Assembly (NCBI RefSeq): GCF_003626975.1
Contig: NZ_CP032616.1
Location: 5,822,399 to 5,886,398, forward strand
DNA: 64,000 nucleotides
Source: Pseudomonas sp. DY-1
Lineage (GTDB): Bacteria; Pseudomonadota; Gammaproteobacteria; Pseudomonadales; Pseudomonadaceae
Reading direction: 5' to 3'
Under the pieces are notes generated by a model. It was not told where the DNA came from. It was given only the letters and a program-made list of their open reading frames with translations, and ran no database searches. Each line of letters begins with the position of its first letter. Position 1 is the stretch's first letter. This document shows, one piece after another, positions 5,301-64,000 of the stretch. The translations under genes were made by a program, and so were the position numbers.

Positions 5301-6434
5301 ATGGGTATTGAAGTGAGCCAAGTCCTGATCGAAAGCGTCGAGACGATCATCGTCGACCTGCCGACCATCCGCCCGCACAAGCTGGCCATGCACACCATGC
5401 AGAACCAGACCCTGGTGGTGATCCGCCTGCGCTGCTCCGATGGCATCGAAGGCATCGGCGAGTCCACCACCATCGGTGGGCTGGCCTACGGCAACGAAAG
5501 CCCGGAGAGCATCAAGCAGAACATCGACAGCCACCTCGCGCCGCTGCTGATCGGCCAGGACGCCAGCAACATCAACGCCGCCATGCTGCGCCTGGACAAG
5601 GCCGCCAAGGGCAACACCTTCGCCAAGTCCGGCCTGGAAAGCGCACTGCTCGACGCCCAGGGCAAGCGCCTCGGCCTGCCGGTGAGCGAACTGCTCGGCG
5701 GCCGCGTGCGTGACGGCCTGGAAGTGGCCTGGACCCTGGCCAGCGGGGATACCGCCAAGGACATCGCCGAAGCCGAGCACATGCTGGAAATCCGCCGTCA
5801 CCGCATCTTCAAACTGAAGATCGGCGCGGGTGAAGTGAACCGCGACCTCAAGCACGTGATCGCCATCAAGCAGGCCCTGGGCGACAACGCCAGCGTGCGT
5901 GTCGACGTCAACCAGGCCTGGGACGAATCCGTTGCCCTGCGTGCCTGCCATATCCTTGGTGATAACGGCATCGACCTGATCGAACAGCCCATTTCGCGCA
6001 TCAACCGTTCCGGCCAGGTACGCCTGAACCAGCGCAGCCCGGCGCCGATCATGGCCGACGAGTCCATCGAAAGCGTCGAGGACGCCTTCAGCCTGGCTGC
6101 CGACGGCGCCGCCAGCATCTTTGCCCTGAAAATTGCCAAGAACGGTGGCCCACGTGCCGTGCTGCGCACCGCCCAGATCGCCGAGGCGGCCGGTATCGCC
6201 CTGTATGGCGGCACCATGCTGGAAGGCTCCATCGGCACCCTGGCGTCGGCCCATGCCTTCGTCACCCTCAAGCAACTGACCTGGCACACCGAGCTGTTCG
6301 GCCCACTGCTGCTGACCGAGGAAATCGTCACCGAAGCGCCGGTCTACCGCGACTTCCAGCTGCACGTGCCGCGTACCCCGGGCCTTGGCCTGGCCCTGGA
6401 CGAAGAGCGCCTGGCGTTCTTCCGCCGCAAGTAA
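5301..6434 (+). CDS. catB: Muconate cycloisomerase, 377 aa
   Basis: Converts cis,cis-muconate to muconolactone, the second step of catechol ortho-cleavage. It belongs to the enolase superfamily: the KLK motif places the catalytic lysines at 171 and 173, Mn ligands fit Asp202, Glu228 and Asp253, and the opposite base fits Lys277. The early VDLPTIRPHKLAMHTM segment is characteristic of Pseudomonas CatB. The frame is open far upstream into catR, but ATG 5301 gives the family-typical N terminus. It heads catB-catC-catA, with catC starting 15 bases after its stop. Confidence 0.96.
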   Translation: MGIEVSQVLIESVETIIVDLPTIRPHKLAMHTMQNQTLVVIRLRCSDGIEGIGESTTIGGLAYGNESPESIKQNIDSHLAPLLIGQDASNINAAMLRLDKAAKGNTFAKSGLESALLDAQGKRLGLPVSELLGGRVRDGLEVAWTLASGDTAKDIAEAEHMLEIRRHRIFKLKIGAGEVNRDLKHVIAIKQALGDNASVRVDVNQAWDESVALRACHILGDNGIDLIEQPISRINRSGQVRLNQRSPAPIMADESIESVEDAFSLAADGAASIFALKIAKNGGPRAVLRTAQIAEAAGIALYGGTMLEGSIGTLASAHAFVTLKQLTWHTELFGPLLLTEEIVTEAPVYRDFQLHVPRTPGLGLALDEERLAFFRRK

Positions 6435-55775: not shown

Positions 55776-55801
55776 TGGAGCGGGCGAAGGGAATCGAACC
55801 C
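55776..55801 (-). other. Prophage attachment site: 3' end of tRNA-Gly (CCC type)
   Basis: The minus strand reads as the last 26 bases of a tRNA-Gly (T arm, acceptor stem and terminal CCA minus the last bases: GGTTCGATTCCCTTCGCCCG then CTCCA). The rest of the tRNA is missing; unrelated sequence follows. This is the expected left junction of an element integrated in the tRNA 3' end. The full tRNA should lie beyond the right end of the window. The flanking 55414-56006 stretch holds no gene. Confidence 0.8.
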
Positions 55802-56006
55802 GTTTCAGGTGGGTCGCAGTAGGTTGCAAAGTGGTGCAAAGCCCTGATCACTCGGCCTGCCAAGGCTTTGTCTCGTTGCTATGTGTCGCTGTGTATTCGA
55901 CACATTTTCGACACCTCGCGGGTTTCGTTACATCCGCCGCGCCGCAGGGTTTCCTTTCCGGTAGGATCGTTGCAATAGCTCAATGTGGGACAGAGGAGGT
56001 CTGTAA

Positions 56007-56759
56007 ATGAGCGCAGAAGTTATCGCGGCGATTATCGGGTTTTGTGGGGTTGCTTTTGCCGCCTTTCTAAGTTCTGTTGGATACCTTCTTAAGGCGCGAG
56101 TTGAGCTAAAGCGAAGTGCTCGTCTTGTTCTTTATTATCTTATGGAGATCAGATACACCATAAATACTACGCTCATTGATCCCAATAGTTTTTATGAAGG
56201 GTTCATGAGGGAGGTAAATAAAGTGTTTGAGGCGAGAGGTATTCCAGTAGCCGATCCTGTTATTGCTGAGTTGGTTGAAGCGGCGGTCTATGCTCATCTG
56301 TCAAATATGGTGGGGTCCATACGAATGGAGATTGATGAGGGGCTTTTGGTTGGCTATGAGGAGTCCCTGAAACTATTGGCGTGTGAAAAACCTGTTCTGG
56401 CCTATCAGCTAAGGGGCAAGGAGAGAATCCAAGAGGCTGCTTCTCACACAATTCAATATACGGAAAAGTTAGAGAAAGAAATCATTCCTGATATCTCCAC
56501 TGGGAAAGTTCAGGATTTTCTCCTATCGTTCTCGCGTAGTAAGAAAGGTGAGTCTCTGAATGAGGTTGCCGATATGCTGGATGGAGACATCCTCATGCTC
56601 GCCAAGAACTGTGGGTTCCTTGAATATATAAAGTGCAAAAGAGCCTTAAAAAAGACCTCAAGGCTCCATGAGAACTTCGATTTTTCCGGTATAGACGAGT
56701 TTCTTGACACGATGATGGACTCACTCAAAGTCTTCGCCCAAGCCCAAGAAATTAAGTAG
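56007..56759 (+). CDS. Prophage cargo membrane-anchored protein of unknown function, 250 aa
   Basis: One N-terminal membrane helix (residues 5-28, IAAIIGFCGVAFAAFLSSVG) is followed by a largely helical cytoplasmic domain of about 220 residues with no family I recognise. A strong AGAGGAGGT site lies six bases before ATG. Base composition is AT-rich and unlike the chromosome. It is the first gene inside the att site, transcribed toward the convergent cargo pair. It could be a superinfection-exclusion or membrane effector protein, but nothing in the sequence proves this. Confidence 0.75.
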   Translation: MSAEVIAAIIGFCGVAFAAFLSSVGYLLKARVELKRSARLVLYYLMEIRYTINTTLIDPNSFYEGFMREVNKVFEARGIPVADPVIAELVEAAVYAHLSNMVGSIRMEIDEGLLVGYEESLKLLACEKPVLAYQLRGKERIQEAASHTIQYTEKLEKEIIPDISTGKVQDFLLSFSRSKKGESLNEVADMLDGDILMLAKNCGFLEYIKCKRALKKTSRLHENFDFSGIDEFLDTMMDSLKVFAQAQEIK

Positions 56760-56913
56760 CAGTAGAAGAACTCTCTCGTCCTGGCTAGTGTTCATGGCGC
56801 CAATCAACGGAATGTTGAATAAATTAGTGATTGGCGCAGTGCTCAATTCTTTTGAATTTAAATTGGGGGGTAAATCTATTTCGCTCCCTGTTTTCGAGGA
56901 TCTGGTTCAGCCA

Positions 56914-58101
56914 TTAAATAATAGGAGCTGGAGCTGGAGCTGGAGCTGGAGCTGGAGCTGGAGCTGGAGCTGGAGCTGGAGCTGGAGCTGGAGCTGGCTT
57001 CCTTTTTTTGAACTTGAACAAGAGTTCTGGAAGAAATTCAATCGTAGATGAATTGATTTTTGAGAGGGTCTGTTCTTGCGTTGGTGGTAGATTTCTAAAT
57101 TGATGAAAAATGAAATTTCTAACTGGGTAGAAGAATTCCTCGAAATTTACTCCGGTCTTCTTTGCAACTCCGCCCAGGAATGAGTCACATTGAGTTTTGA
57201 GGTCTGCTAGTGAGCCAGCACAGTTGGCATATTCATTGATGAGCAGCTTTATCCTCTCCTTTTCAGAGCTGAGTACTTGAAGCTCTCGCAGTATGTCCTT
57301 CGTCGCTGAGGGGTCAGCTTTCGAAGCGAACAGATTATCTATCACTGCTTCTTGTTCATGCTTCAGGATGTTTTCTAGTAATAACTCAAAGACCTGATAG
57401 ACATAGAAGAAGCAAAATGCAGGATTGTTTTCGTATGGAAAGAGATTGCCCATGATGGATGAAATTACGTGGCTGTTTTCAACTTCTTCAGATATGTAGT
57501 GTAATTTTAGTTTGTCGCCATCTGGCAGATTTGCATGAAAGTGCGAGAGGTCAGGGTTTTTGATTGTGAGTGGACTAAAGCCGTATTTCATAAGGGATGG
57601 TATTGCTCGGCTAATATCAAATCCTTCTCCATTCAGGGTCTCCTTGCTAATAACGAGGATTACAGTGTCTGGATGAAAGAATTTTGAGAGTCGTATGTTT
57701 TCATCTCCGCTGATGTCTGGTCTTTCAGTGTATATGTCGTCAAACGAGGAGTTGATGATCAGTTCGATTGCTTTGTATGCGTAACGCAAGAAGTGAGGGC
57801 TGCTGGCGTAACTATGAAGCGAAGACTCTAGCGCATTTATCGGGATGCACCAGCCAATTCGAGGCTCGTCCGATTCTTTTTTGAGGTGCGTGATAAATAT
57901 GTCATTTTCCTTGACTCCTTTTCGGAGGAGGAAATGCACCTCAAATTCCTTATCCTTAAAATCGTCAATTAGTGTCAATGGCGTAAAGATCTGGAAGCTA
58001 AGTTCGTGGTCCTCTTCGAAGGATACAGTGTGGTGTCCTTCCGAATATCCTGAGTAAACGAGCTTTACGCTTTTTCCATGATGCACACACTCAAAAGCCA
58101 T
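56914..58101 (-). CDS. Prophage cargo protein with HEPN-like motif and Pro-Ala tail, 395 aa
   Basis: Unrecognised N-terminal region (1-225), then a helical C-terminal domain whose pieces resemble a HEPN RNase: helix FYVYQVFELLLENIL (232-246) and YPVRNFIFHQFR (325-336), where Arg328 and His333 form the R-x4-H motif. After a basic KFKKRK stretch the chain ends in about twelve Pro-Ala units (369-393) encoded by a hexamer repeat. It starts eight bases after the DGxxR gene, with an AAGGTG site, so the two are cotranscribed. A toxin-like RNase paired with a regulator is the working idea; the HEPN call is by motif only. Confidence 0.75.
   Translation of the reverse strand: MAFECVHHGKSVKLVYSGYSEGHHTVSFEEDHELSFQIFTPLTLIDDFKDKEFEVHFLLRKGVKENDIFITHLKKESDEPRIGWCIPINALESSLHSYASSPHFLRYAYKAIELIINSSFDDIYTERPDISGDENIRLSKFFHPDTVILVISKETLNGEGFDISRAIPSLMKYGFSPLTIKNPDLSHFHANLPDGDKLKLHYISEEVENSHVISSIMGNLFPYENNPAFCFFYVYQVFELLLENILKHEQEAVIDNLFASKADPSATKDILRELQVLSSEKERIKLLINEYANCAGSLADLKTQCDSFLGGVAKKTGVNFEEFFYPVRNFIFHQFRNLPPTQEQTLSKINSSTIEFLPELLFKFKKRKPAPAPAPAPAPAPAPAPAPAPAPAPII
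56924..56995 (+). repeat. Hexanucleotide microsatellite (GGAGCT)12
   Basis: Twelve exact GGAGCT units. Read on the minus strand they encode the Pro-Ala tail of the cargo protein; being a multiple of three, changes in copy number would alter tail length by two residues without shifting the frame. The plus-strand reading (Ser-Trp repeats) is judged a shadow. Confidence 0.97.
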
Positions 58102-58109
58102 AGTGCACC

Positions 58110-59288
58110 TTACATGTTTTGGGCTTGATACTTCCTAAGAGCAGTCTTGGAAGCTTTGGTAAGGTCTCTGTAGCTTTCTGAGTCTTTGTTGAATAGGTCT
58201 CTGAAGAAGAATGTGAAGTAAGTTCTTTGGGCGTTGCCAATTTTACTGGCATTGTTTTTTAGCCAGTCCAAAGAGTTGTTGGTTTCTTCTAGAAATTCCT
58301 CTGGATCGTCAATGGTGAGGGTGTTTATTATCTCTATAATTTCATCTACGCTATTTACAGATTGGAAGTCAATTAGCTTTCCAATTGCGGCGCCTAGTCC
58401 AGACATGGCCTGCGGCTTTTTAAAGATCTGAACAGGTTTTTTTGCAAAGGGAGAATTATTTTTTTCCAAGTAATCTTCAGAAAGTTCGCAGTCTCCGCAG
58501 ATTTCTTCTAGTTTCGTGACAAGGTGATGCAGTGTCTCCAGGTACTTTTCAAAAAGCTCTGTACCTTGGTTCTCTTTCGAGAGTTTTTCAAGGCTGTTAA
58601 TGTTTTCCAGTATGTCCGCCTTTTCTATTGGAAGTTCATCTCTGTCCAGGTAGGCGTTAAACCCTTCTACTACGTCCTTAAAGTTGTACTGGTTGATTCT
58701 GGATGCGACCTTGTTGTCGTTCTCTCGGAGTAATTCAACGCCATCTATTCCTGTCTCGATATAGTCAAGGTAAAGAATTTCAATCTGCTGGCGCAAAGAC
58801 ATTGGAGTCTGTCCGGTATTAAGCGTCAGCATTCGATAGAGAATCCCAAGGCGATTCAGGCCAACATATAGCTCCACCCGTATTTTGGATCGACGAACGC
58901 TTTCTAGAGTATCAATGTCATTCTTTTCGGTTAGTTCGGTGAGAAGGTCGAGAATTGTATAGGTTCGCTGTAGTCCATCTAGAATCACAAGGTTTGAAGC
59001 GTTTTGCATAACCTCGTCGAGGAATCTGCCTTCGTCGTCTGGAATGCTCTCGTCATAATCTTTTATGGTGGTGGTTAGTGCTAATACCACCGGTGGAATA
59101 ACGCACTGTCTCATCAGGTCGTGCTTAAGGAGTGAGTATACAGTTTTAGATGAGCGTACTCTTTTTCTCTGGAATACGTTGTTTTCCAAGACTCCTTTTA
59201 TTATCCCAACATACTCCCCAATCTCCATTTCTATAAGGGTATTGGTAGCATTGATTCTTAAGTCTCTAAGATGAGATGCGACTTTCAT
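58110..59288 (-). CDS. Prophage cargo DGxxR protein (ParB/DndB/DGQHR-like), 392 aa
   Basis: The motif NLVILDGLQRTYTILDLL (99-116; Asp104, Gly105, Arg108) and the following LTLNTGQTPMSLRQQIEIL (154-172) resemble the DGQHR/DndB and DUF262 branch of the ParB-like fold, proteins found in DNA-modification defence systems and other anti-phage systems. The region 40-70 (SSKTVYSLLKHDLM, CVIPPVVLA) fits the upstream strands of that fold. The C-terminal half is helical and unrecognised. It is the first gene of the two-gene cargo operon, with an AGGGA site before ATG. AT-rich composition indicates transfer. Confidence 0.7.
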   Translation of the reverse strand: MKVASHLRDLRINATNTLIEMEIGEYVGIIKGVLENNVFQRKRVRSSKTVYSLLKHDLMRQCVIPPVVLALTTTIKDYDESIPDDEGRFLDEVMQNASNLVILDGLQRTYTILDLLTELTEKNDIDTLESVRRSKIRVELYVGLNRLGILYRMLTLNTGQTPMSLRQQIEILYLDYIETGIDGVELLRENDNKVASRINQYNFKDVVEGFNAYLDRDELPIEKADILENINSLEKLSKENQGTELFEKYLETLHHLVTKLEEICGDCELSEDYLEKNNSPFAKKPVQIFKKPQAMSGLGAAIGKLIDFQSVNSVDEIIEIINTLTIDDPEEFLEETNNSLDWLKNNASKIGNAQRTYFTFFFRDLFNKDSESYRDLTKASKTALRKYQAQNM

Positions 59289-59427
59289 GGCGTTCCCTGT
59301 TAATTTTAAAAATTAGCCTTGGTTATTTAAGGGCATATGTTCGTGAGTGTGCACAAATTTCAATTATTTCATCCTTGTTCGCGTCTTGCTTGGGCATACC
59401 ATCGCCTAGTCACTTCTTTAGTAATTG

Positions 59428-59703
59428 CTATCCCGCGCTTTGATTTGGCAAGTTTGAATGCGCTGCATCGTAATCAGGACTGGTTTGGCCCATTTCTGGA
59501 GCAACTTCACCAGTCAGCATCCACCACCTGTATTGAGGGAACACTTTGGCGATAGCCAGAATCTCCTCTTCTTTGATCTCCCTCTTGCGGGCAGGGTTCT
59601 TCAGATTGTTCCAGGTATAGCGGCTGATTCCCGTCCGCTCTTCAAGCTCCGGTAGGCGGATGCCGGAGCTTTTCAAAATTTCTATAACGCGAGCCTTTAT
59701 CAT
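59428..59703 (-). CDS. Inovirus repressor-like HTH protein, 91 aa
   Basis: Small DNA-binding protein with a helix-turn-helix near residues 10-35 (LKSSGIRLPELEERTGISRY) and the segment YRWWMLTGEVAPEMGQTSP, typical of Pf-like prophage repressors. It is divergent from the Xis-like gene, and the 127-base gap holds two related palindromes. No ribosome-binding site is apparent, so it may be leaderless or nearly so. It is expected to keep the phage operon silent in the lysogen. Confidence 0.82.
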   Translation of the reverse strand: MIKARVIEILKSSGIRLPELEERTGISRYTWNNLKNPARKREIKEEEILAIAKVFPQYRWWMLTGEVAPEMGQTSPDYDAAHSNLPNQSAG

Positions 59704-59727
59704 AACGAAATGATCTATATGTTATCT

Positions 59728-59784
59728 ATCCAAAATGGATTTGTTTCTGTATTATTCGTTTCAGGTTGATCCATATTGGATCAA
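59728..59784. promoter_or_regulatory. Prophage repressor operators
   Basis: Two palindromes share the core ATCCA-N3-TGGAT: 59728-59740 and the longer, perfect TTGATCCA-TAT-TGGATCAA at 59766-59784. Centres are 41 bases apart, about four helical turns, in the AT-rich gap between repressor and Xis-like gene. Confidence 0.75.
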
Positions 59785-59830
59785 TTAAAGGCGAATCGCT
59801 TGCATTGCAACGAATAGTGACGGAACAACC

Positions 59831-60046
59831 ATGGAACTGGAAGAGCTTGACCCGCGCGCGCTGATCGGCCCGCAACAGGACGTTGAAACCATCGAGAGCT
59901 GGGCCGAACGCAACGGCGTCGCATACGGCGTTGTCCGGGCCTGGGCCATGAAGGGTGTGCTGCCCACCGTGAAGCTGGGCAAGCGCCGCATGGTCAACAG
60001 CGCCATGCTCCGCACCTGGCTCCTGGAGCAGGAGTGGACGGCATGA
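59831..60046 (+). CDS. Xis-like DNA-binding protein, 71 aa
   Basis: Small excisionase/MerR-like winged-helix protein: VETIESWAERNGVAYGVVRA followed by KGVLPTVKLGKRRMVN is the usual helix-wing arrangement. In Pf4 the equivalent (XisF4) drives excision and activates replication genes. It is the first gene of the rightward phage operon; its stop overlaps the next start (ATGA). Confidence 0.8.
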   Translation: MELEELDPRALIGPQQDVETIESWAERNGVAYGVVRAWAMKGVLPTVKLGKRRMVNSAMLRTWLLEQEWTA

Positions 60047-60333
60047 ATGCTCACCTCACCGCCTGCCTGCGTTCGCTTCTGCTCTCCATCCGCTACTCCG
60101 AGCCAAGCGCCTCTCTGTCCGCACTGGTGCTCTTCCACCAACTGGTGCTGATGCATCGCATTGCCCGCTGCGTAAATGCGGACCAGTACATCCGCCTGAT
60201 GACTCTGGCCGCCAACGCATGCCGCTACGCCCTGGCCGGCTACAAGCAAAAAGCCGTCGCTGCGATCACCCAGGCCGACTCCGCCGCACTGGCCCGTTTC
60301 ATCGACCTTCATTCCCGAGCAAAGGAGCGCTAG
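60043..60333 (+). CDS. Inovirus hypothetical protein, 96 aa
   Basis: Helical, mildly basic protein (MNAHLTACLRSLLLSIRYSE...) with no domain I recognise, translationally coupled to the Xis-like gene. Its place between Xis and the ssDNA-binding protein matches the small hypothetical genes of Pf phages (PA0717-PA0719 region). Function unknown. Confidence 0.7.
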   Translation: MNAHLTACLRSLLLSIRYSEPSASLSALVLFHQLVLMHRIARCVNADQYIRLMTLAANACRYALAGYKQKAVAAITQADSAALARFIDLHSRAKER

Positions 60334-60336
60334 GCA

Positions 60337-60560
60337 ATGGAAAGGGAACGCTTCGACCTGTCACTCAAAGACCTGCTCAGCCCGCCCCGGTAATGCCCTG
60401 GCGCGAATTCGCGGACTGGATTCGCATGGGCAACGACCACGACGTGGTGTGGGGCTGGATTCGCAACGGCTACATCCCGTCGCACAAGGTGGGCAAGTAC
60501 GTGATGGTCAACGTGGCGCTCCTGACCCAGCAGTTACTGGAAAAGGAGTGGACGGCGTGA
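60337..60560 (+). pseudogene. Second Xis-like gene with a single-base frame break
   Basis: ATG 60337 opens MERERFDLSLKDLLSPP, then a stop follows at 60391. One base lower in phase the frame continues VMPWREFADWIRMG to EKEWTA at 60560. Joining the two at the CCCC run (60385-60388) gives a protein of about 73 residues that aligns end to end with the first Xis-like gene (shared E-x-D start, AW/GW...NG...P...K(L/V)GK, and the identical EWTA end). A one-base deletion or sequencing error is the likely cause. ATG 60393 could still yield a 55-residue product. Confidence 0.75.
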
Positions 60561-60563
60561 ACC

Positions 60564-60850
60564 ATGAACACACTCGACCGCTACCGCCGCCTCGCCCACG
60601 CCGCCAACTGCGACTGCTCTGTCTGCTGGTCCCGTCGCGAACTGGCGAAGAGCGCGCCCTCCCGGTCCATGTCCTGCGAGCACTGCCGCCCCGCGCAGAT
60701 ATCCAAGGTCGCTGGGCGCTGGGTCTGCCAGCCGGCCTCGTTCTGCGAGAAACACAGGCCCGCCCGCCGCGCCCGAAGTACTGGAACGTTGTGTACGACA
60801 GCGGCAAGCCCACGCCCTTCGTGCCCATCTACGAGCCGTTCGAGGACTGA
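60564..60850 (+). pseudogene. Inovirus Cys-rich zinc-ribbon-like protein with frame break
   Basis: The first frame holds paired Cys motifs (CDCSVCW, MSCEHCRP, FCEKHRPARR) typical of a zinc-binding phage protein, but from about 60775 it turns into low-quality sequence. The -1 frame then reads PKYWNVVYDSGKPTPFVPIY to a stop at 60850, three bases before the next ATG. A one-base loss near the GCCC at 60771-60774 restores a single frame of about 95 codons. Confidence 0.7.
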
Positions 60851-60853
60851 GCC

Positions 60854-61066
60854 ATGACTGACGCCCAATTCATCGTCGTGGTCGTGGCCCTGTTCGCCTG
60901 GCTGACCTTCCGGCTGGCCAAGGCCCTCGGGCTTCTCCCACGCCGCCGCCCCCGCGCCGGACTCGCCCCGGTCCAGGGCCGCCGCACCGGCTTGTCCGAA
61001 CACGCTTCACCGTTCGGTCAAACGGAGCGCCGGGCGGAGCGCACCCTTGACCGCGCCCCGCCCTGA
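60854..61066 (+). CDS. Small inovirus membrane protein, 70 aa
   Basis: One N-terminal membrane helix ([20 protein letters not shown], residues 6-25) followed by a basic tail. It starts three bases after the previous gene. Position fits the small membrane proteins before the ssDNA-binding gene in Pf-like phages. Function unknown. Confidence 0.6.
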
Positions 61067-61313
61067 AAAGCCTCGGCTGGGGAGAGAGGGGCAGCTCCAC
61101 CGCCCCGCGCTCCCGAGCCCTCGGCGGCAAGAGTGGGATGACAAGGGCAAAGCCCTTGGTGTTGACCCAGTAACCGGCCGCGCAGGCCCACGTTTTTAAC
61201 CCCCGGTAGACCGAGACAGCACTCGGGCGAAAACAAGAGTTCGCCTGTGTGGGATCGCTCGGCCTGCTGAAAGGCAAACCGCGCATGTCGCGCACCCAAG
61301 TGAGGAAACACAA
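61067..61313. other. Phage intergenic region with hairpins
   Basis: 247 bases without a gene. It has a perfect CAAGGGC-AAA-GCCCTTG hairpin (61142-61158) and GC-rich inverted segments near 61100-61135. In filamentous phages such gaps can carry replication or packaging signals, but I see no proven nick site. Confidence 0.4.
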
Positions 61314-61667
61314 ATGGCACGTTCAATCATGGAAGTTGCATTCCTGGGCACCCAAAAAACCGAAATGGAAGGCGCCAAGTACGTGAAGGTCTTCTACGGC
61401 GATGAGCCGGACGGCAAGACCGAGCACGGCCTCTCCATCATCGGCATGGCGGTGGCCGACGATTACGCGGATGAGGTGTTCGCCGCTGGCGCTCAGTTCT
61501 CCCCGCTGGAAATGGTCCGCATCACCTTCGAGGTGGACCGGGGCGGCCAGAACAAGGGCAAGAACCTCGCCCTGCACATCGAGTCGGCCAAGCCGCGTCC
61601 GACCTCGCAAGGCTCCCGCCAGTCGCAGCCTGCCGCTCAGCCTTCGAGCGAGCCGGCCAAGTCCTAA
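61314..61667 (+). CDS. Putative inovirus ssDNA-binding protein, 117 aa
   Basis: Small beta-rich protein (MARSIMEVAFLGTQKTEME..., MVRITFEVDRGGQNKGKNLA) with a Ser/Gln/Pro-rich tail. Its place just before the CxxC protein and coat genes is that of gene V / PA0720 in Pf phages, which coats single-stranded phage DNA before assembly. ATG follows a GAGGAAA site. The assignment rests on position and general character. Confidence 0.7.
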   Translation: MARSIMEVAFLGTQKTEMEGAKYVKVFYGDEPDGKTEHGLSIIGMAVADDYADEVFAAGAQFSPLEMVRITFEVDRGGQNKGKNLALHIESAKPRPTSQGSRQSQPAAQPSSEPAKS

Positions 61668-61684
61668 CCGGGGAGGGCGCCGCC

Positions 61685-61852
61685 ATGGTGATTCTGGATC
61701 GCGTCGTGTGTGACCGCTGCGGGCGACCGATGGGCCAGCTCTGGAATCAACCGGCCCCGGCGTCCGACCTCCTGCCGCAACTCCATGAACACACCTGCCC
61801 CGGTGGCTGCGAACAGCCGCTACCGGCCCAGGTGCTGGAGCACACGGCGTGA
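61685..61852 (+). CDS. Small CxxC inovirus protein, 55 aa
   Basis: Fifty-five codons with CDRCGRPMG and HTCPGGCEQ, a likely zinc-binding pair. A GGGGAGG site precedes ATG and the stop overlaps the next GTG start. Position matches PA0721 of Pf4. Confidence 0.7.
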   Translation: MVILDRVVCDRCGRPMGQLWNQPAPASDLLPQLHEHTCPGGCEQPLPAQVLEHTA

Positions 61853-62064
61853 ATTTCATCCTCTGTGACGGTGAGTGGGGCCAGGGCGCAGGCGGCGAGA
61901 TCGTCTGCACCGGGCAACTCTCGGCGCTCACGGTGGAGGAATTCCGGGCCTCGCTGGATCAAGGGTCCGGGCTTACGTGGGAGGACGCCCAGGCGCTCAA
62001 GGATGAGGTGCTCATCCTGTTCGCCGGGGTCTTTGCCTTCCTTCTCCTGAAGAAACTGCTGTGA
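61849..62064 (+). CDS. Inovirus membrane protein (PA0722-like position), 71 aa
   Basis: GTG start overlapping the previous stop. The soluble N-terminal part has MNFILCDGEWGQGAGGEIV, followed by one C-terminal membrane helix VLILFAGVFAFLLLKKLL. Probably a minor coat or assembly protein of the pVII/pIX kind. It immediately precedes the major coat gene. Confidence 0.7.
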   Translation: MNFILCDGEWGQGAGGEIVCTGQLSALTVEEFRASLDQGSGLTWEDAQALKDEVLILFAGVFAFLLLKKLL

Positions 62065-62075
62065 GGATTCACACC

Positions 62076-62282
62076 ATGCGTATCAAGCAACTGCGTTCCC
62101 GCATCTCCGCTGCCGTTGGCACCGCCGCCGCTGTCGTCGGCAGTGCCGTCCATGCCGCGGTGCCGACCGAGGCCACCACCGCACTGACCACCGCTGGGAC
62201 CGACGTCGGGACCATCGGCTGGGCCGTGTTCGGCGTCCTCGTCGCGGCGGCTGCGTTCAAGTACATGCGCCGCGCCCTGTAA
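62076..62282 (+). CDS. Major coat protein (pVIII/CoaB-like) precursor, 68 aa
   Basis: A signal sequence of about 27 residues ends VHAA; the mature coat has an acidic/Thr start (VPTEATTALTTAGTDVG), one membrane helix (IGWAVFGVLVAAAAFKY) and a basic end MRRAL that faces the DNA. Size and layout fit filamentous-phage major coat proteins. ATG 62076 follows GAGGA; the in-frame GTG at 62061 is less likely. Confidence 0.88.
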   Translation: MRIKQLRSRISAAVGTAAAVVGSAVHAAVPTEATTALTTAGTDVGTIGWAVFGVLVAAAAFKYMRRAL

Positions 62283-62346
62283 GGCCGGTGTCCGTTCCAT
62301 GGGCCCGGTTCGCCGGGCCTTTCTTTTCCACAGGGCGAGTAGCGAG

Positions 62347-63839
62347 ATGGTGAACCCATGTCCTTCGACTATCCGGCGTTTTATCTGGCCCTTTGCTGCG
62401 TGGCTTTTTTACCTGGTGTTTTTCGGGCGTCTTTAGCCCTCAAGCATCTGCCGGCACCGGCACCTCGGCCTATTACGTGACCGGACAGCTGACGGCTAGC
62501 CTCCGATCGAACCCTGCTGAGTCCTGTGCTGCCTATGGCGCCGCTGTTGGCATTTCGTTTCAAGAGCTCAACGGCGTTGATACAGGGTGTTTCTACTACG
62601 GGCCGAATGGGGAGTCGCGCTACACCTACCGGTCGCTCGCCGTGGGTTATTGCCCGGCAGGGCAACTGTTCTACAACGAGCTCGGTCAGTGTTCGGGGAC
62701 CCCCCGGAGCCGGAACCCGATCCCTGTGAAGCCACCATCGGCCAGAACCTCTCCACGAACACCGCATGGGCGACTACACCGGAGGTGGTGCCATCGGTGG
62801 CCGCACCGACCCTCCCGGCGTGGTCTGCCAGGGTTCCTGCCAGTACGCCTGGGACAGCGCCGGACCCACCAACGTCTACCGCTTCGTCGATGGCACGCCC
62901 AATGGCGTGTTCGGCCTGTTCTCGTACAAGGGCAACGGCGTGTCCTGTAGCGCCGAAGACAGCCCTAACAAGGGCCCGTCCTCCCTGGAGGCGCAATCCA
63001 AATCCGAGTCCAGCTGCACCGACAAGGTGACCGACGGAGAAGGGCGGGTGCATATGACCTGCCAGACCAGCAGCGAATACACCAATCCCGGCTCCTGCGA
63101 CCGGGGCCAGGTTAACGGCGAAACCGTGTGCATTCCCAACAGCCCGTCGCCCTCGCAGCAGAAGACCGAGACCGAAAAAGAAATCACCGAGGTCACCAAC
63201 CCGGACGGCTCCAAGACCACCACCACCAGCGAAACCACCACTACGACCAACTGCTCCGGCACTAAGTCCTGCACCACCAGCGTGACCAACAACACCTCCG
63301 TCAGCCACACCAACGCCGACGGCAGCAAGGGCGATGAGTCCTCCACCTGCACCGGCTCCGGCTGCAAGGACGGCGACGGCAAATCGCAGGACGACAAGGA
63401 CAAGGAGAAAGAAGAGAAGGAAGAAGACGAGTCGGTAGCGACCGGCCTGGCCTGTACGGAAACCGTGGCGTGCGAAGGGGATGCTATTCAGTGCGCGATT
63501 CTGCGGCAGGAAAAGGAGCAGAAGTGCGCGGCTGAAGAACTGAACGACTTCGCGGCGCACAAGGACGATATCGAAGGCTTCCTCGCCGACGCCGATCCCG
63601 GCAACCCCGAATCGCCGCAACTCCAGGTGCCGTCCTTCATCGACTCCGGGGCCCGCTGGCTCCCGTCCGGCACCTGTCCAGCGGACCAGTCGCTCAACCT
63701 GCAAACCCTGGGTGGCCGCAGCTTCTCGCTGTCCTTTGAACCGCTCTGCGCGGCGGTCAACGACCTGTCCTATGTCCTCGTGGCCATTGCTGCCGTTGCG
63801 GCGGCGCTCTACGTGGGCCGAGCCTTTGGAGGTGCCTGA
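62347..63839 (+). pseudogene. Minor coat / adsorption protein (pIII/CoaA-like), broken by frame changes
   Basis: The product reads across three frames: the N-terminal domain (SPQASAGTGTSAYYVTGQ... to LGQCSGTP, frame of 62393), a short PEPEPDPCEATIGQN piece (frame of 62587), then MGDYTGGGAIGGRTDPPG to the end (frame of 62766). The breaks are at the C6 run 62700-62705 and at GCATGGG 62764-62770; one base inserted at each restores the frame. The signal peptide may also be split, with MVNPCPSTIRRFIWPFAAWL from ATG 62347 joining at the T5 run 62419-62423; otherwise TTG 62393 is the start. The C-terminal part has a Thr/Lys-rich linker, a Cys-containing domain and a final membrane helix (SYVLVAIAAVAAALYVGRAF). 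Confidence 0.8.
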
Positions 63840-64000
63840 TGCAATTCCTCTTCATCGCCCAGCTCATCATGATGATCATCGGCCCCGCCGTGCGCCTGGT
63901 GCTGCGCATGCTCGGCGTCGGCTTCGTCACCTACGTCGGCTACAACATCGCGCTCAACGGGGCCGAGTCCTACATCATGAGCCGGGTGGGCAGCAGCGGC
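63839..64000 (+). CDS. pVI-like (DUF2523) minor coat protein, partial
   Basis: ATG overlaps the previous stop by one base (TGATG). The visible 54 residues are highly hydrophobic (MQFLFIAQLIMMIIGPAVRL, then GFVTYVGYNIALNG), typical of the DUF2523 protein encoded between pIII and Zot in Pf-like phages. It runs past the window edge; the Zot/pI, replication initiator and integrase genes should follow. Confidence 0.8.
   Translation, partial: MQFLFIAQLIMMIIGPAVRLVLRMLGVGFVTYVGYNIALNGAESYIMSRVGSSG

Follow-up and report, generated by a model that had tools for sequence, protein, structure and literature searches.

Dazbog as cargo of a Pf-like prophage in Pseudomonas sp. DY-1, with a conserved HEPN-type motif in DzbB

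What does the small AT-rich operon beside the repressor gene of a filamentous prophage in Pseudomonas sp. DY-1 do, and has it been seen before? The window analyzed here, a whole stretch of 64,000 nucleotides (NZ_CP032616.1, positions 5,822,399 to 5,886,398), contains the two genes of this operon, dzbA and dzbB. A preliminary description had presented them as an undescribed defence or toxin-antitoxin pair, with a ParB/DndB-like DGxxR protein as sensor or regulator and a HEPN-like protein as effector. Our analysis indicates a known system in a new carrier. We put at roughly two in three the probability that Dazbog rides here as lysogenic cargo of a Pf-like phage, with DzbA as sensor and DzbB as a HEPN-type RNase effector that arrests growth before phage production.

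58110..59288, minus strand: dzbA, 392 amino acids; ParB/DUF262 domain and helical C-terminal part; predicted NTP-binding sensor
56914..58101, minus strand: dzbB, 395 amino acids; beta-rich N-terminal half and helical C-terminal half with R-N-x3-H; predicted RNase effector

Assignment of the pair to Dazbog

DzbA matched the PADLOC profile PDLC03835 with an E value of 1.6e-150 (499.8 bits; residues 1-390 on positions 2-392 of 393) and DzbB matched PDLC03836 with 3.2e-74 (248.4 bits; residues 31-366 on positions 17-339 of 341). The two proteins thus cover almost the whole profiles, and their genes are directly adjacent in the same order. PADLOC names them DzbA and DzbB, which we take to be the Dazbog system, reportedly described originally by Millman et al. 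in 2022. Judged by these profiles the pair is Dazbog, a known anti-phage system; since PADLOC already calls it DzbA and DzbB, it is not undescribed, while the defence role proposed earlier is borne out by the family membership. Compared with the known system, the window pair is distinctive in riding on a Pf-like inovirus and in a (PA)n tail of DzbB that derives from a (GGAGCT)12 tract.

According to section 6 of a review, the DUF262 gene of Dazbog is required for defence and the system lacks DUF1524 (PMC10952713). Passages of other papers give phage methylases as the trigger (PMC12409349) and place Dazbog among abortive systems (PMC11680222), and the reviews, in the passages concerned, call its mechanism unknown or unclear. 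No link between Dazbog and HEPN appeared in the literature passages; the papers that first described Dazbog and its methylase trigger are represented here through reviews and may contain an earlier remark on HEPN. The names DzbA and DzbB retrieved only unrelated papers among the matches listed.

The order of the genes is constant. In 10/10 loci found with DzbB (6/6 from genomes and 4/4 from viral contigs) dzbA was directly upstream on the same strand, and the conserved pairing anticipated before was found, with no sign of rare co-occurrence. Two of these loci, L018 and L034, match identically and are apparently one Oceanimonas stretch, therefore the independent loci are nine. In the window both open reading frames (ORFs) have ATG starts in the ORF listing, and an intergenic gap of eight bases separates the end of dzbA (58110) from the start of dzbB (58101). 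Their GC contents are 41.7% (dzbA) and 43.2% (dzbB) versus 64.3% in positions 59831-64000 of the window; the gap and the AT-richness had been described correctly.

Dazbog is rare in the survey of the class, in which DzbB was found in 3 of 369 genomes: the window's own, G385 with DzbA adjoining, and G169 with a weak match containing internal stops. DzbA was found in two of the 369, and two of the three DzbB-positive genomes carry both. Within the genus, DzbB appeared in one of 18 genomes, again the window's own. Neither protein was matched in 50,697 phage records at E<=1e-5, and plasmids gave no DzbB and only distant relatives of DzbA (9 records, 24-37% identity). Among viral contigs the single DzbB sequence retrieved nothing and the DzbB alignment retrieved four loci. 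In L018/L034 and L023 dzbAB has an integrase-like match at a distance of a few kb, and across L018-L023 the integrase was at most what matched among the Pf proteins tried.

The carrier prophage

55776..55801, no strand: attL core, 26 bp, at the end of a tRNA-Gly gene and common to the other junctions; prophage start
59428..59703, minus strand: phage repressor gene, 91 amino acids (phrog_147, E 4.6e-23), 86% identical to the PfAC19 repressor
59831..60046, plus strand: excisionase-like gene (phrog_1864), 79% identical to the PfAC19 excisionase and start of the divergent phage core

The prophage unit measures about 12.77 kb and is integrated in tRNA-Gly(CCC). Each phage junction carries the attachment (att) core, and the final one in the array adjoins an intact tRNA-Gly(CCC) (L011:11465-11538). 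We label it Pf-like because its repressor (86%), excisionase (79%), replication initiator (58%) and integrase (65.5%) resemble those of PfAC19; other PfAC19 proteins (coat A, coat B, helix-destabilising protein and Zot) matched nothing in the prophage at E<=1e-5. On these similarities the host element is a Pf-like inovirus prophage with a tRNA attachment site. The pair does lie between att and repressor as described, with the correction that a gene of 250 amino acids (56007-56759) intervenes.

In the Pf-like viral contigs L032 and L033 dzbAB also adjoins the repressor gene, and in L032 the excisionase is 100% and the helix-destabilising protein 99% identical to that of PfAC19. Dazbog is absent from the eight systems given in the passages concerned of a defence survey of Pf phages (toxin-antitoxin type II, Retron, Kiwa, ShosTA, Gabija, IetAS, PfsE and Avs; PMC11878078). 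Words for filamentous phage did not occur in PMC12926258, PMC11680222 and PMC10121019, PMC13340146 names a filamentous Pf phage apart from Dazbog, and among the matches listed for Dazbog together with filamentous phage no paper contained the name Dazbog; the word search left out the Dazbog papers PMC10952713, PMC10286901 and PMC12409349. With this prophage, Dazbog is added to the defence repertoire of Pf-like filamentous phages.

DzbA is predicted to have a ParB/DUF262 fold

58965..58979, minus strand: DGLQR, DzbA residues 104-108, a variant of the DUF262 motif DGQQR
58809..58823, minus strand: LNTGQ, DzbA residues 156-160, inside the invariant TLNTGQT

The motifs noticed in the preliminary description (DGLQR at 104-108 and LNTGQ at 156-160 of DzbA, RNFIFH at 328-333 of DzbB) are all present at those residues, and their conservation speaks against chance. 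The database search gave 2216 relatives of DzbA, and among the best 120, which were listed, DGLQR was found in 120. DGLQR and TLNTGQT are invariant in 52/52 rows of an alignment made of the window protein, 45 of the 120 listed relatives and six genome loci. The sequence LDGLQR, also in 52/52, retains D, G, the second Q and R of the DUF262 motif (I/V)DGQQR, with L for the first Q. The Pfam family GmrSD_N reached 31.4 bits on DzbA, just below its cut-off of 33.2, and PF03235 is precomputed for most homologues among the 120 matches listed. When folds were compared, rows 1-19 of the VIA ranking were all ParB/DUF262-type chains; Foldseek itself found nothing for DzbA at E<=0.001, with BrxU at row 9 and the ParB-like PadC at row 36. 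The LNTGQ region is poorly modelled (pLDDT below 50 at residues 157-167), and a PDB sequence search with the DzbA and DzbB profiles returned nothing meaningful. The predicted structure supports DzbA as a ParB/DUF262-fold protein.

The other half of the ParB/DndB-like label was not supported. Scans of DzbA against Pfam, PADLOC and NCBIfam listed no DndB, DpdB or DGQHR profile at E<=10, and on this ground we rejected DndB/DGQHR membership; the comparison gene of PfAC19 does match. This phage of P. aeruginosa (OR863248) carries a DGQHR gene and a partner in the same slot and strand beside its repressor (L007:1600-3579), although the DGQHR gene is of the DndB/DpdB/DGQHR family and the best BLASTP values of the pair, 0.034 to DzbA and 0.19 to DzbB, are not significant. 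The partner of the DGQHR/DpdB-like gene has 324 amino acids and no family match, and the two are another candidate two-gene module.

DzbA shares the ParB-like N-terminal fold and a DGxQR motif with DUF262 proteins of the GmrSD/BrxU/SspE/DndI type, but has DGLQR in place of DGQQR, no DUF1524 nuclease, and a separate partner gene in the effector place. Such a likeness would also fit Type IV restriction, with DzbA recognising modified DNA as GmrS or BrxU do and the pair cutting DNA; we consider this improbable, since the DUF1524 His-Me-finger nuclease is not among the Pfam families for DzbA at E<=10, is not one of the 25 Pfam families listed, out of 27, for the 45 DzbB rows, and is missing from Dazbog in the review cited above. 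The same genome encodes, at another place, a further protein of DUF262 type that is distantly homologous to DzbA (C2:5220638-5221291, L006; 31% identity over residues 46-278).

DzbB and the HEPN families

57103..57120, minus strand: RNFIFH, DzbB residues 328-333, HEPN-type R-x4-H in helix 320-337 of the model

The database search gave 44 relatives of DzbB. In the 45-row alignment, one row of which is a 265-residue fragment that does not reach the motif column, R328, N329 and H333 are each present in the 44/44 rows that do, and Y235 and E239 in 45/45. The relevant passage of PMC3710099 defines HEPN proteins by the motif Rx4-6H, in which the R is mostly followed by N, D or H, and the R-N-x3-H of DzbB fits this definition. 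The C-terminal region of DzbB was compared by hhalign with 20 HEPN_RiboL-PSP sequences (from 20 of 23 loci; L049, with an internal stop, and the partial matches L046 and L050 were left out) and gave P 0.0056 with the motifs in register. The score was 22.8, versus 11.8 for the reversed sequence, 13.2 for the N-terminal part of DzbB, 10.5 for Hpt and 18.95 for the C-terminal part of DzbA, and was reached by 4 of 200 block shuffles. Full-length comparison with nine ApeA proteins (of 12 loci, omitting L100 and the partial matches L102 and L107) was co-linear with the motifs again in register, at P 0.16 and with 5/100 shuffles reaching the score. As a yardstick, RiboL-PSP against ApeA gave only P 0.02, so that even accepted HEPN families can score weakly against one another.

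Other comparisons were less favourable. Five MAE_28990 sequences alone gave P 0.49, and HEPN-type sequences pooled together (22 kept of 26) gave an ordinary score matched by 85 of 200 shuffles. The Pfam family MauJ was found in 6 of the 45 members, with 5.8e-4 as the best value, and HEPN_Cthe2314 in one of 45 (E 0.03); a single MauJ protein was examined and bears RNSLMH. The structure model of residues 1-367 has a pLDDT of 94.9, yet Foldseek found no match in PDB and BFVD at E<=0.001, and in the VIA ranking HEPN/KEN proteins were tied with unrelated helical bundles. Of the earlier label HEPN-like, the strictly conserved motif stands and the fold comparison did not add to it. HEPN membership of DzbB is favoured by its sequence, not proven, and its assignment as an RNase is plausible, unproven.

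There is a further similarity in gene order. From 150 genomes we identified 23 HEPN_RiboL-PSP loci, of which six have an ORF of DUF262 type with DG[QL]QR directly upstream on the same strand (seven were flagged, and L045 was dropped because its NGLHR is not a DUF262 motif). Such an upstream ORF was found in 0/30 Hpt control loci and in 0/12 ApeA loci. The DzbA profile matched the six ORFs with E 8.3e-6 over 75 columns. One of these pairs (L036:219-2103) shares the DGLQR of DzbA; its DUF262-type ORF immediately precedes a gene matched by both HEPN_RiboL-PSP and HEPN_MAE_28990, two families that match the same proteins, and the pair is a compact analogue of Dazbog. In the passages concerned, PD-T4-2 is listed under DUF262 and HEPN alike in a review, and a table of PMC3710099 gives ParB in operon with the HEPN_RiboL-PSP and MAE_28990 families. 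These operons share with Dazbog a DUF262 gene directly upstream of an R-x4-H gene, but their HEPN frames are mostly of 168-272 amino acids, whereas DzbB carries a long additional N-terminal half and lacks a clear HEPN match in Pfam. ApeA (ApeA_NTD1 and HEPN) resembles DzbB in a mostly beta N-terminal part and in R-x4-H near the end in 7 of 9 proteins; it differs in its lack of a DUF262 neighbour, and its weak co-linear profile match to DzbB is not significant. A shared logic, DUF262 gene first and HEPN gene second, is suggested across separately named systems.

Proposed mechanism and alternatives

In the mechanism that we propose, DzbA would bind a nucleotide and sense infection and, on the published evidence, it may respond to the action of phage DNA methylases or to methylated DNA; it would do so with no DUF1524 nuclease of its own. 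The R328-N329-x3-H333 site of DzbB would be kept inactive until the signal from DzbA, and activated DzbB would then cut RNA, arresting growth before phage are made. The RNase hallmark in DzbB would explain how Dazbog could stop an infected cell, and the window copy is presumably active. With the conserved R-N-x3-H and the predicted ParB/DUF262 fold, Dazbog becomes a scheme of two steps that can be probed by changing single residues.

A wider proposal, which in our judgement is evenly balanced, is that DzbB represents the first member of a HEPN RNase family not recognised so far, its beta-rich half serving to couple it to the sensor, and that Dazbog acts by abortive infection, a nuclease-free ParB/DUF262 protein activating an RNase upon phage methylase action. 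Dazbog would then form one class with PD-T4-2 and the DUF262-HEPN_RiboL-PSP operons, and Pf phages would swap ParB-type pairs as cargo in one repressor-side slot.

Unlikely, but worth weighing, is a Dazbog whose DzbB is not an RNase, the RN-x3-H helix being structural or nucleotide-binding and DzbB acting otherwise, for example by attaching to DNA or by inhibiting a phage protein. Two observations weigh against an RNase here: the fold and profile matches to HEPN are all below significance, and the N-terminal half is strictly conserved (R81, G83, W84, P87, S93, H96 and Y107 in 45/45 rows), so the decisive chemistry might reside in that half. Against a non-RNase DzbB stand the 44/44 conservation of R, N and H with HEPN spacing, the motif in register with RiboL-PSP and ApeA, the end offset of Csm6' and the recurring DUF262-HEPN gene order.

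We regard as rather improbable a toxin-antitoxin pair, in which DzbA would restrain a toxic DzbB mainly for prophage maintenance. A two-gene prophage operon with the presumed regulator first would suit it, but the profiles point to a tested anti-phage system, a NadS-family gene pair is already at the other prophage end, and dzbAB is also found in loci without Pf core genes. There is little probability, too, that the pair is the prophage's own immunity, excluding superinfection by related Pf phages and not defending against lytic phages. It is true that dzbAB lies beside the repressor in 3/3 dzbAB-bearing Pf-like elements and that a dual-role Pf module, KKP, exists (PMC11341870, in the passage concerned). 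However, dzbAB also occurs in L018-L023, with their integrase match at most, and the neighbouring repressors differ, therefore the pair is not bound to a single type of immunity.

Neighbouring features and the prophage array

56007..56759, plus strand: AT-rich gene of 250 amino acids between att and dzbB; hydrophobic N-terminal segment (by eye)
59289..59427, minus strand: intergenic stretch of 139 bp from repressor to dzbA, the two genes being co-directional
56924..56997, no strand: (GGAGCT)12 hexanucleotide tract within dzbB (TRF), coding for a Pro-Ala tail beyond the conserved DzbB end

For the 250-residue gene, not counted here as part of Dazbog, Pfam, PADLOC and NCBIfam gave no family and tblastn gave no match in phage records. 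The 139-bp stretch contains no terminator-like site on the minus strand; sites resembling promoters or terminators did not exceed the number obtained from shuffles, and the RNA family scan gave no match. The GGAGCT tract has 12 units in each of five genome copies. The tail that it encodes sits after the last conserved helix, PAPAPA occurs in 0/44 database relatives, and the tail is probably neutral; a change in unit number would leave the reading frame intact.

At the other prophage end (L011:10764-11371) a NadS-family gene (60.2 bits, cut-off 60) overlaps an upstream ORF of 104 amino acids for which there was no convincing family match, likely a second accessory pair. Tandem prophage units are found at both ends of the chromosome contig (C2:1-31490 and window 55776-64000). 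Besides the window copy, the junctions lie at positions 5925, 18697 and 31472 of C2, and contig C1 (26,350 bp) repeats C2:1-26353 at 99.97% identity. The tandem may be a genuine array, phage in replication or a product of the assembly. A phage ORF of 513 amino acids, by position a probable minor coat protein, is fragmented in the window copy (62300-63840, near the contig end) and open at L011:5215-6756; intact copies exist.
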